DNA of 64,000 nt, taken from positions 1 to 64,000 of the forward strand of contig MWCR01000003.1 of the NCBI GenBank assembly GCA_002070095.1. The letters run 5' to 3'. This document shows, in pieces, positions 9,949 through 38,228 of this stretch (the first letter of the stretch is position 1; each line of letters starts with the position of its first letter). The stretch comes from Parcubacteria group bacterium ADurb.Bin192. GTDB taxonomy: Bacteria > Patescibacteriota > Patescibacteriia > 2-12-FULL-60-25. A program made the translations under genes and the position numbers. The notes under the pieces are model-generated. The model saw only the letters and a list, made by a program, of their open reading frames with translations, was not told the DNA's origin and did not search any database.

Positions 9949-10025
9949 TGGAGCCCAAAGTCGGATTTGAACCGACGACCTACGGTTTACAAAACCGTCG
10001 CTCTAACCAACTGAGCTATTTGGGC
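9949..10025 (-). tRNA. tRNA-Thr (anticodon TGT)
   Basis: The acceptor arm GCCCAAA pairs with TTTGGGC; the discriminator is T and CCA is encoded. The anticodon stem ACGGT/ACCGT holds loop TTTGTAA, so the anticodon is TGT (codon ACA). T73 complements the variable base of the thrS T-box at 36914-36927. Confidence 0.94.
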
Positions 10026-12877: not shown

Positions 12878-12953
12878 TGGAGCCGTTGACCGGGATTGAA
12901 CCGGTGACCTTCTCCTTACCATGGAGATGCTCTACCAGCTGAGCTACAACGGC
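12878..12953 (-). tRNA. tRNA-Thr (anticodon GGT)
   Basis: The acceptor arm GCCGTTG pairs with CAACGGC; the discriminator is T and CCA is encoded. Anticodon stem TCTCC/GGAGA holds loop ATGGTAA, giving anticodon GGT (codons ACC and ACT). This is the tRNA expected to read the Thr codons in the small hairpin of the thrS leader. Confidence 0.94.
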
Positions 12954-34769: not shown

Positions 34770-36554
34770 CTATTCCCTGCTTTTTATCTTTTTAACCAAC
34801 TCTTGCGTAAAGTTATCCACAGTCAAAGTTTGCTGATCCGCCTGCCCGCGCCAGCGAACAGTCAGTTCTCCCCCGGCCTCTTTGTCTCCAAAAACTATCA
34901 TGCAAGGCATTTTTTGCTTTTCAGCGTTGCGGATCTTTTTGCCCACGCTCTCCGCCGCCTCATCCACCTCACACCTGATATTCAAAGCCGACAGTTGATC
35001 CGCCAGTTGACGGGCTGAATCCAAATGCCTGTCCGCCACCGGCAAAATTGCTATCTGTACGGGAGCCAGCCATAACGGGAAAGCACCGGCATAATGCTCA
35101 ATCAAGACGGACAAGAAACGCTCTATGGAACCCATGATGGCGCAATGCACCATAACCACCCGCTCCTTCTCGCCTTTTTCGTTGACACAGGTCAAGTCAA
35201 AATTTTCCGGCATGTTAAAATCCAGCTGAACCGTGGCCACTTGATGCTTGCGCCCGATGGCATCCAAGCCCATAAAATCAATCTTGGGGCCATACATGGC
35301 AGCTTCGCCCTCACCTTCTTCGTATGCGACTCCCCTTTTTTCTATCATCTGTCTCAACTGCGACTCGGCTTCGCTCCAAACCTCTTTGGTGCCCAAATAC
35401 TTCTCAAACTTATCCGGATCATGAGTTGACAGCCTGACTGACAAATCAAAGCCAAAAGTGGAATAAAAAACATCAATTATATCCCAAATGGCAAAACATT
35501 CTTGTTCAATCTGACTCTTGCGGCAAAAAACGTGCGCGTCATCCTGGGTAATACAGCGGACACGCGATAAGCCAGCCAGTTCACCTGATTGCTCGTCCCG
35601 ATAAACCATGGTGGTTTCGGCGTAGCGCTGGGGCATATCGCGATAACTGCGCATCTGCGAGTCGAAAATTTGAGTGTGATGCGGGCAATTCATGGGTTTT
35701 AAAGCGAATTCATGCCCCTCGCGTGTGACAATCTTAAATAATTCGTCTTTAAACTTGGCCCAATGACCGCTTTTTTCATATAAATCCTTTTTGGTTATGT
35801 GCGGGATGGCAACCTTGGCGTACCCCTTTTCCCTGCGCAACTGCCACACAAAGTCATCTAAGACGGTCCGCAAAACCGTGCCCTTGGGACTCCACAAGGG
35901 GAGCCCGCTGCCCACTAAATCGGAAAAAGAGAATAAACCCAATTCCCGGCCTAATTTTTTATGATCTCGTTTTTCCGCTTCCTCCAACATGAGCTGATAA
36001 GCTTTTAACTCATCTTGCGTCGTAAAACATAGTCCGTAGATTCTTTGTAACTGCGGATTGCCTTCCTTGCCCCGCCAAAAAGCCCCGGCCGTTTTCCAAA
36101 TCTTACAAGCACCGACATCGGCCGTGCTGGCCACATGCGGGCCGCGGCACAAATCAACAAAATCTCCGGTCTTGTAAACACTCACCTTCTCCGGCGCATT
36201 AGGATCTATGTCCCCGGCTTCGTCCTCTGATAACTTGGTAGTGCCCTTGGTTCTAATGTCGTTTAAGAGTTCAACTTTATAGTCTTGATTTAGGGACTTA
36301 AATAAGTCCACAGCCTGATCCAAGGTCATTTCAGATCTTTCAAAAGACAATTTTTCTTTAACCAAAGCGTCCATGGTCTGCTGAATTTTTTGCAAATCTT
36401 CAGGTGTGACCGCCCGGCCAATGTCAATATCATAATAAAAACCAAAATCCAAAGCCGGCCCCACCCCGAACTTAGCCTCGGGAAAAAGCCGTTTGACGGC
36501 CGCGGCCATCACATGCGCGGCACTATGGCGCATTATTTCGACATTGTCTGACAT
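34770..36554 (-). CDS. thrS: Threonine--tRNA ligase (no TGS domain)
   Basis: A 594-residue class II synthetase. It begins directly in the second additional (SAD) domain (MRHSAAHVMAAAVKRLFP with HxxxH and later C.GPHV), so the N-terminal TGS domain of about 60 residues found in E. coli ThrRS is absent. The catalytic core has KPMNCPHHTQIF (zinc Cys), motif 2 RYAETTMVYRDEQSGELAGLSRVR and motif 3 AIMGSIERFLSVLIEH; an anticodon-binding domain ends the protein. The upstream leader carries a T-box riboswitch and two dispersed repeats, one ending nine bases from the ATG. No Shine-Dalgarno is visible. Confidence 0.96.
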   Translation of the reverse strand: MSDNVEIMRHSAAHVMAAAVKRLFPEAKFGVGPALDFGFYYDIDIGRAVTPEDLQKIQQTMDALVKEKLSFERSEMTLDQAVDLFKSLNQDYKVELLNDIRTKGTTKLSEDEAGDIDPNAPEKVSVYKTGDFVDLCRGPHVASTADVGACKIWKTAGAFWRGKEGNPQLQRIYGLCFTTQDELKAYQLMLEEAEKRDHKKLGRELGLFSFSDLVGSGLPLWSPKGTVLRTVLDDFVWQLRREKGYAKVAIPHITKKDLYEKSGHWAKFKDELFKIVTREGHEFALKPMNCPHHTQIFDSQMRSYRDMPQRYAETTMVYRDEQSGELAGLSRVRCITQDDAHVFCRKSQIEQECFAIWDIIDVFYSTFGFDLSVRLSTHDPDKFEKYLGTKEVWSEAESQLRQMIEKRGVAYEEGEGEAAMYGPKIDFMGLDAIGRKHQVATVQLDFNMPENFDLTCVNEKGEKERVVMVHCAIMGSIERFLSVLIEHYAGAFPLWLAPVQIAILPVADRHLDSARQLADQLSALNIRCEVDEAAESVGKKIRNAEKQKMPCMIVFGDKEAGGELTVRWRGQADQQTLTVDNFTQELVKKIKSRE

Positions 36555-36563
36555 ACTGATATC

Positions 36564-36650
36564 AATTACGAATTATCCCGACACAACGATAAAGAATATA
36601 TTGATCGGGATCCCGACCGAAGTGTCGGGGCGAATTAAAAATTACGAATT
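36564..36650. repeat. Dispersed inverted-repeat element, family C (copy 1)
   Basis: About 87 bases with AATT-rich ends, outer arms CCCGACAC/GTGTCGGG and an inner TCGGGATCCCGA palindrome. It is nearly the reverse complement of 43949-44036. Read in the thrS direction it ends nine bases before the start codon. Confidence 0.85.
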
Positions 36651-36709
36651 ATAGAACCAATATTTACGTCATTCCCATGCTGAGCGTAGTCGAAGGGGGC
36701 GCCCCCTCA

Positions 36710-36811
36710 TGTCATTTCGAGCGATAGTCGAGAAATCGCTTTGGTTTAATAAGCTCAAGGGATCTCTCCACAGAGCCTGCACTGAGCCTTGCCGAAGTGG
36801 TCGAGATGACA
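36710..36811. repeat. Dispersed TGTCAT...ATGACA element (copy 2)
   Basis: A 102-base element with TGTCATTTCGA and TCGAGATGACA ends. By eye it is over 90 percent identical to the inverted copy at 22120-22220 inside the GC-rich island. It lies in the transcribed leader between the T-box terminator and thrS. Confidence 0.88.
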
Positions 36812-36852
36812 CAGGCATAACCCTGATGGCCGGAGGCGGATTATGTAAAATT

Positions 36853-36999
36853 AAAAAAATCCGACCAGCCTCTTTGCGACTCGTCGGGACGATCTTTCGA
36901 AACAAACGATTGACCGCGGTTCCACCCGTGTTCCCCGAATGACTTCGGGGCTCTTTTTTATTAAATTTTCAGCCTTTATCCGGTTGGTGAGTCCGGAAC
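36853..36999 (-). promoter_or_regulatory. T-box riboswitch controlling thrS
   Basis: In minus-strand order: a small hairpin TCCGG-ACTCACCAA-CCGGA (36997-36979), a CCCCGAA/TTCGGGG stem (36950-36933), the T-box GGGTGGAACCGCGG (36927-36914), the antiterminator partner CGTCCCG, and a terminator hairpin CCGAC-G-AGTC/GGCT-G-GTCGG with seven T bases (36859-36853). The CCCG of the antiterminator is also part of the terminator, so the two folds exclude each other. The T-box bulge is TGGA; its A pairs with discriminator T73 of both tRNA-Thr genes in this window. The Thr codons ACT and ACC lie in the hairpin loop. Full Stem I is absent. Confidence 0.85.
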
Positions 37000-37005
37000 T
37001 TAATC

Positions 37006-37034
37006 AGCATAAACCAAACGCTTTAAAGCGTCAA
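37006..37034 (-). promoter_or_regulatory. Promoter of the thrS T-box leader
   Basis: TTGACG (37029-37034) and TATGCT (37006-37011) are separated by 17 bases on the minus strand. Transcription would start close to 36999, only a few bases before the small hairpin, which sets the upper limit on leader length. Confidence 0.65.
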
Positions 37035-37037
37035 TTA

Positions 37038-38228
37038 TCAATAAATCTCTAAATTTATTTTATCCTTCATGGTAGGCAAACGATGGACCCAGCTTGGCTC
37101 CAGAATCACGTCCACTTCTTCAACCCCGTCCAAAGCCGACCATTTGCGGATCACTTCATCGCCGGGCAGACCAACGATCAAGTCTTTCCGTAAAGCCGGG
37201 CTGGCATCGGTCAGCTTGCTCTCGGCCTGGGCAGAAACAGCCAGCAAGGCACTACCCTTGTCCGCATCTGCGCTTTCCAAGCGAAAACTAACGCGGGAAA
37301 AATCAAAATTATCCAAAGCATAACCCTCGGGTATCTTTTCGCTTAACCTGCTCCTGATTAAAGCCGCCACATCCTCTCTGGGGAAGAAAACCGCCGTTAC
37401 CCCCACTCTGACTTGAGCTAAAAAAGAATCAATCTCCTGTCCGGTGGCCGCATTGCTTTGTTTTTGATAATTGTTGATCAAAAAAATAGATTCCCAGGCC
37501 GGATCCGCCCCGGCTTCCACAATCAAAGTCTGCTTGGCTTTTTCCAAGGCCGCGGCATACAGCTCTTCATGCGCCTTGGCCAAAGAATCGGCCGTCACCA
37601 TTTTACGAGGTCCGCTAGATCCGCCCGGAGGATTAAAATCGGTCACGCTTTCGGCATAAATCAAAGTCTGAAGATCTTTCCATAAGCCCGGGATAGCGAA
37701 GCTGGTTCCGGCTTTTAATTTGTATTTATCTCCCACCTCATCGGATTCAGCCTTTACCTCCACCGAACTCCCGGCCGGCACGTTAACCGAATCCGTAATC
37801 CTGTAAAGCCGGTTGTCAGCCGTCAACAAACGTGTTTTGGCCACCAAGGGCTGAGGCTTGGAGTATTTATTGATTATTTTAACCGTACCCGAAGTCTTGG
37901 ACGGTTCGGGATTAACCGCCACCGTAGTGCTGACCACGGATACCACAAACTCCTTAGCTTCGGTAAAAGTACCGCTGACCACCCGGCCTTTTATCTGTCC
38001 GGAAATGGGCGAGGAAGAGATATCCATGACCGTATCAATGGCCACAGGCTCTCTTTTAACCTTAACCATAACCTTGGCCTTAACCGAAGATGTCCACAGA
38101 GCCACCCCGATGACACCCAAAGTCACCAACACAAAAGTAACCGCGATATTCCTGAAGAGTTTAGGCGTTGGAGGCTGAGGAAATCCCCCCGTGTGGCCGC
38201 GAGTAATTTTTATACCCATACTCCGCAT
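37038..38228 (-). CDS. Membrane-anchored extracytoplasmic protein (baseplate J-like region)
   Basis: A 396-residue protein with a short cytoplasmic start, one membrane helix (about residues 28-49) and a beta-rich exterior. The segment VKIINKYSKPQPLVAKTRLLTADNRLYRITDSVNVPAGSSVEVKAESDEVGDKYKLKAGT resembles baseplate-J/gp47-like beta domains, here cited by key pieces only (TLLTADNRLYRIT is the most telling). No enzyme motif was found. In small-genome bacteria such proteins are often annotated as baseplate J family without evidence for a phage tail. It starts about 30 bases after dnaE on the same strand. Confidence 0.55.
   Translation of the reverse strand: MRSMGIKITRGHTGGFPQPPTPKLFRNIAVTFVLVTLGVIGVALWTSSVKAKVMVKVKREPVAIDTVMDISSSPISGQIKGRVVSGTFTEAKEFVVSVVSTTVAVNPEPSKTSGTVKIINKYSKPQPLVAKTRLLTADNRLYRITDSVNVPAGSSVEVKAESDEVGDKYKLKAGTSFAIPGLWKDLQTLIYAESVTDFNPPGGSSGPRKMVTADSLAKAHEELYAAALEKAKQTLIVEAGADPAWESIFLINNYQKQSNAATGQEIDSFLAQVRVGVTAVFFPREDVAALIRSRLSEKIPEGYALDNFDFSRVSFRLESADADKGSALLAVSAQAESKLTDASPALRKDLIVGLPGDEVIRKWSALDGVEEVDVILEPSWVHRLPTMKDKINLEIY

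Follow-up and report, generated by a model that had tools for sequence, protein, structure and literature searches.

A predicted threonine T-box riboswitch with an ultrashort specifier hairpin in the thrS leader of an uncultured member of the Patescibacteria

A complete transcriptional T-box lies 5' of thrS on the minus strand (36999-36853) of the window, by which we mean the whole 64-kb stretch of DNA analysed here, and this leader is very probably a transcription-attenuating threonine T-box riboswitch. It may be among the smallest tRNA-sensing RNA switches yet seen, a tiny hairpin with one Thr codon replacing the large tRNA-gripping domain that has been thought necessary. The long Stem I, the K-turn and Stem II appear to have been removed all at once, with the codon kept under selection. 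A 2020 review asks whether any T-box works without a K-turn, and transcriptional T-boxes are described there as generally needing long Stem I's (PMC7583486). The source organism is an uncultured MAG of the Patescibacteria, whose cells are ultrasmall.

The regulated gene (34770-36554, minus strand) was identified as thrS, encoding threonyl-tRNA synthetase, by TIGR00418 (652 bits), and two profile libraries agree on its identity; in the closest named relative found, thrS is 77% identical (L098). From promoter to hairpin the minus strand reads TTGACG-17 nt-TATGCT-GATTAAGT-TCCGG ACTCACCAA CCGGA-TAAAGG, and 3' of TAAAGG it continues as ...AAAAAAGAG-CCCCGAAGTCATTCGGGG-AACA-CGGGTGGAACCGCGGTC...GATCGTCCCG ACGAGTCGCAAAGAGGCTGGTCGG ATTTTTTT. 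All the parts that the initial annotation had placed upstream of thrS, namely a T-box sequence, an antiterminator partner and a seven-T terminator, were thus located. The search with the Rfam T-box model that had been proposed as a check gave a divided answer: RF00230 does match the thrS leader at 37.3 bits (E = 1.2e-6 in a 701-base search), but this is below its gathering score of 93, at which no T-box match is found anywhere in the window. The score falls short because nothing in the leader corresponds to Stem I of the model; this leader is the sole T-box match in the window's genome. The U7 terminator lies about 300 nt before the thrS start; dispersed repeats, with 35 more partial copies elsewhere in the genome, occupy the interval between the two (36560-36850), and the thrS leader has therefore been lengthened by repeat insertion.

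The promoter scan returned one site on the minus strand (0.3 expected in shuffles), a sigma-70-like promoter TTGACG-17-TATGCT at 37006-37034. The start predicted from it at about 37000-36999, 6-7 nt past the -10 box, would leave 2-3 nt of RNA ahead of the hairpin and place Stem III 49 nt downstream, in good agreement with the earlier estimate of about 48 bases ahead of Stem III. In the window 9 nt separate the -10 box from the four inner pairs of the hairpin stem, and in the window's family this distance is usually 7-11 nt. In most family members TTGAC(G/C/T) with 16-18 nt spacing is again found 7-11 nt ahead of the hairpin; the longer 5' ends of L020, L023, L036 and L040 are exceptions to this close arrangement, and L038 gave no good promoter in the scan. 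It had been a concern from the outset that the functional RNA might start upstream, by read-through from the gene at 37038-38228, and carry a normal Stem I there. The neighbouring upstream genes are on the same strand, read-through being possible, and the 5' end of RF00230 aligned at 37079. However, the greater part of the Stem I model is left unaligned there and the aligned stretch lies within protein-conserved coding sequence (MKDKI...), and the promoter keeps its place next to the hairpin in most members even where the upstream sequence differs (L026, L028, L030), which makes an upstream start very improbable.

The putative ultrashort Stem I is the specifier hairpin UCCGG-ACUCACCAA-CCGGA (36979-36997, minus strand), which has 5 bp, the 9-nt loop ACUCACCAA and a folding energy of -6.4 kcal/mol. 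Its stability is not better than composition predicts (z -0.9 against shuffles), and since the folding of the hairpin alone is not significant, comparative evidence was used. The specifier codon is assigned to ACC (36986-36988, minus strand), followed by a conserved purine, A (36985), the aligned loop position being ACN in 24 of 24 members. A second triplet, ACT (36992-36990), was considered as specifier and rejected, as it is not conserved in relatives; of the hairpin originally described, with five base pairs and a nine-base loop holding both ACT and ACC, the hairpin and ACC are therefore retained while ACT as a specifier is not.

For the comparison a covariance model, R1, was built from Stem III and the antiterminator alone, so that Stem I had no influence on the search. 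R1 matches 24 of the 41 family genomes, and the gene 3' of the match is thrS in 23 of these, the locus in L040 running off its contig. A hairpin of at least 4 bp with ACN-A just ahead of the 3' strand is present in all 24 R1 leaders, against 1.3 expected from first-order Markov shuffles. The stems have 4-5 bp and the loops 7-9 nt, and the codon is ACC in most leaders, ACA in L021 and ACG in L022, L036 and L039, all of them threonine codons; L014 (RF00230, 16 bits) and L041 (R1, E 0.009, no thrS) were left out of the counts. Because loop length varies, a whole-leader MAFFT alignment misplaced the 5' stem strands, and the loops were therefore aligned by length class (7, 8 or 9 nt). Among 16 family sequences, four of the five pairs show two-sided changes, and the covariation score is 0.437 versus 0.238, a score that no shuffle reaches. 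With Saccharibacteria and other relatives included (23 sequences), 100% of cells are paired, two-sided cells number 22 against 4.7 expected, and the covariation score is reached in 0 of 500 shuffles. Covariation in the 7-nt-loop class agrees, and the signal is destroyed when the partner is slid by one to three columns. These alignments were built from hairpins chosen for pairing and are thus biased towards high pairing counts, so that the 24/24 test, in which R1 was blind to the hairpin, is the safer one. It is this comparative evidence that makes the 5-bp hairpin the predicted specifier stem, and the 24 family members bear out the initial proposal of a threonine T-box with a specifier hairpin below the size of every canonical Stem I.

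An unstructured linker (36951-36978, minus strand; MFE 0.0 kcal/mol) replaces Stem II and IIA/B and ends in the RRRNG purine motif AAGAG. The distance to Stem III is 29 nt in the window, and in most family members it lies between 23 and 29 nt (15 members scored), with an extra linker hairpin in L019, L027, L031 and L032. RRRNG is found in 15 of the 15 members scored, and the RRRNG-Stem III-AA motif of T-boxes (PMC7778990) appears in the window as AAGAG, a 7-bp Stem III (36933-36950, minus strand) and a conserved AA that is invariant in A2. Shortly before RRRNG, a motif near ACAAT occurs in 11 of the 24 family linkers where 1.2 are expected (e.g. L020, L021, L029). On the plus strand, Stem III and the purine tract (36933-36956) score as an intrinsic terminator (7 bp, then CTCTTTTTT), which is probably a by-product of the RRRNG motif.

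The T-box GGGUGGAACCGCGG (36927-36914, minus strand) falls in an antiterminator at 36885-36928 (minus strand; RNAalifold consensus of 10 homologues) with the helices A1 CGGG/CCCG and A2 GCGGUC/GAUCGU and the T-box bulge UGGAACC; the UGGN bulge is formed in the consensus fold by GGGUGGAACCGCGG...CGUCCCG. R1 matches 36885-36958 at 70.6 bits, the window sequence being among the inputs of the model. Downstream is an intrinsic terminator (36853-36887, minus strand; -15.6 kcal/mol, z -2.4) consisting of a hairpin at 36887-36861 and U7. The antiterminator CCCG (36888-36885) overlaps the terminator arm (36887-36883), and the two structures are mutually exclusive. A terminator-like hairpin with a T-run was found by script in 23 of the 24 members, and as most of these overlap the 3' arm of the antiterminator, the output is assigned to transcription. 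These terminators also bear on the idea that the T-box is decayed, with the discriminator kept, Stem I eroded and the leader unresponsive to tRNA. Such decay would suit a genome-reduced lineage, the lack of a K-turn, Stem II or elbow-binding motif, and the repeats inserted between terminator and thrS, but it is at odds with the compensatory changes in the hairpin, the invariant Thr codon in the family and the intact terminators. Together these three features indicate continued selection, and we regard decay as highly unlikely.

The predicted ligand is tRNA-Thr(GGU), encoded at 12878-12953 (minus strand), with the anticodon loop AUGGUAA and U73. UGGA in the T-box (36921-36924, minus strand) is complementary to the tRNA-Thr 3' end UCCA. 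Both tRNA-Thr(UGU) at 9949 and tRNA-Thr(GGU) at 12878 end in T73-CCA, as had been pointed out earlier for the match to the variable base A, and the same is true of the remaining one, tRNA-Thr(CGU), which is encoded elsewhere in the genome, so that A can pair with U73 in all three. Among the tRNAs recovered, the only others with U73 are three for Gly and one for Cys, one ARAGORN call, a reverse-strand artefact labelled Arg, being left out of this count. Since tRNAs for Thr, Gly and Cys all match UGGA, it is the loop codon that must supply identity. The hairpin could instead be a mere 5' stabiliser, the tRNA being recognised by its 3' end without codon reading, and the completeness of the discriminator domain and the very small size of the hairpin are compatible with this. 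Yet pairing with UGGA would by itself fail to separate tRNA-Thr from the Gly and Cys tRNAs of this genome. Although thrS and glyS leaders both use UGGA, the triplet in the loop invariably encodes Thr where thrS follows, and it encodes Gly in front of many glyS genes. A stabiliser of this kind is the least probable of the alternatives and has hardly any likelihood in our view.

For the threonine T-box, the following mechanism is proposed. When threonine is short, the anticodon of uncharged tRNA-Thr(GGU) would pair with ACC in the loop of the 5'-terminal hairpin and its 3' end UCCA with UGGA of the T-box bulge, which would stabilise the antiterminator and let RNA polymerase continue into thrS. 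Charged tRNA would be rejected, CCCG would join the terminator stem and transcription would stop at U7. tRNA binding, switching and the transcription start are all features that we infer. Without Stem II, according to calorimetry quoted in PMC7583486, the truncated Stem I's of Actinobacteria show scarcely any tRNA binding, and the affinity of the window hairpin is therefore unexplained. One candidate aid to binding is a loop-loop contact as between complementary anticodons. Carried on 5-6 bp, the heptaloop CUACCAA of most relatives looks like an anticodon arm (C32 U33 NNN A37 A38), and its UACCA is perfectly complementary to U33-GGU-A37, so binding may be like the pairing of two complementary anticodons. 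The conserved linker motif ACAAT and a protein are further candidates; B. subtilis thrS gained function in vitro once a protein fraction was added (PMC7583486).

Beyond the family, R1 matches 103 of 381 genomes of the class and 40 of 380 across the phylum. The initial annotation had overlooked this Patescibacteria-wide set of ultrashort Stem I T-boxes as well as the absence of K-turn and Stem II in the window. In Saccharibacteria (L100, L101, L104, L106) the window-type loop sits on a K-turn, AAGC-NNN-GA...GA-GCUU, and the loop ACUCACCAA is found exactly in L100, L101 and L104; the loop of L116 shows ACU. In other families of the class the hairpin comes after GAUUG and its loop is usually CUACCAA (34 of 46 leaders by a strict pattern). 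There an outer helix, with its 3' strand following CUAA, encloses the hairpin and further hairpins; it is flush, with 4-9 bp, in 20 leaders, a count made without shuffle control. This GAUUG/CUAA outer-helix architecture (thrS leaders L048-L113), usually with one or two extra hairpins, has apparently not been described before. L103 was left out of the T-box core count as its antiterminator looks degenerate, and a loose ACN-purine loop test outside the family (52 of 53 against 26.5 expected) has a high null and was not used as evidence, the strict pattern serving in its place. ACC-loop leaders with UGGA also stand before GNAT-like acetyltransferase genes, not directly before thrS, in L061, L069, L092, L096 and L097 (genes profile-tested for L069 and L097).

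Other amino acids are represented as well. UGGA together with a GGC or GGA loop precedes glyS in L044, L078, L109, L110, L121, L122, L124 and L130, glyS being called by profile in each case except L110, where the downstream gene was not identified, and several of these Gly-codon leaders have an evident K-turn. The loose Gly-codon loop test is weak (15 of 16 against 8.2 expected), and the Gly reading comes from individual inspection of the K-turn-based hairpins. Two leaders from the window's own family, L005 and L006, have a K-turn, the 7-nt loop UUCCCAG (CCC) and UGGU, precede a proS-like gene and read like an ultrashort proline T-box. A leader of an aspartyl-tRNA synthetase gene (L045) has UGGC and the hairpin CUCAG-UAGACA-CUGAG, whose loop possibly shows GAC.

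On balance we favour the view that the thrS leader is a T-box of about 105-116 nt (hairpin to antiterminator) which reads tRNA by two contacts, hairpin-anticodon loop-loop and acceptor end, with neither K-turn nor Stem II nor elbow contact, and that it is the reduced end of a Patescibacteria-wide ultrashort class (Thr, Gly, Pro, perhaps Asp) mostly missed by current models. RF00230 scores above its cut-off in only one of the 41 family genomes, and not at thrS. The finding points to tRNA-controlled regulation across Patescibacteria that the Rfam T-box model largely misses, and the thrS leader offers a compact model for defining the smallest RNA able to read tRNA identity and charge. Our search of openly accessible published papers found none on T-boxes in Patescibacteria.

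In relation to known T-boxes, the K-turn motif was sought in the window and in the thrS-leader family sequences and is absent, and there is no GA/GA motif or closing helix at the base of the window hairpin. With the -10 box 7-11 nt before the inner four pairs, as in the window and most family members, there is no room for a K-turn and closing helix. In canonical class I (RF00230), Stem I is by definition long and carries the K-turn, a specifier bulge and a double T-loop, where the window has only a 19-nt hairpin between promoter and linker. With class II (actinobacterial ileS) it shares the specifier in the terminal loop of a short Stem I, and it has none of the other class II features, that is, the K-turn, Stem II with S-turn and Stem IIA/B, and translational output through a sequestrator. 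The element is a T-box through its core and the identity of its codon, yet as they are defined neither of the Stem I classes described so far accommodates it, and it is best regarded as a minimal variant.

In the known ultrashort Stem I's, those of actinobacterial ileS, the K-turn is retained and Stem II is required (PMC7583486; PMC10651847). The translational ileS T-boxes of N. farcinica and M. tuberculosis resemble the window element in the codon in the terminal loop, the lack of an elbow-binding apex and the T-box core (PMC7583486), whereas they act on translation, respond to isoleucine and depend on a K-turn, on a Stem II that has an S-turn, and on IIA/B, in place of which the window has a terminator, threonine and neither K-turn motif nor Stem II. 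The B. subtilis glyQS type is likewise transcriptional and without Stem II, its linker leads straight to Stem III and its codon pairing is G-C-rich, but its Stem I is long and includes a K-turn, a specifier bulge and a double T-loop that contacts the elbow, of which the window has none. The thrS T-boxes of B. subtilis and other Firmicutes serve the same gene and amino acid and are of the canonical long Stem I kind. The other thrS, glyS and proS T-boxes of Patescibacteria (L100, L101, L104, L106, L116; L109, L122; L005, L006; L048-L113) have the same ultrashort specifier hairpin, but unlike the window they keep a K-turn or the GAUUG...CUAA outer helix, often with extra hairpins before Stem III. 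The window's family has lost both arrangements, the order of these losses being inferred; compared with its relatives, the version in the window looks like a further reduction.
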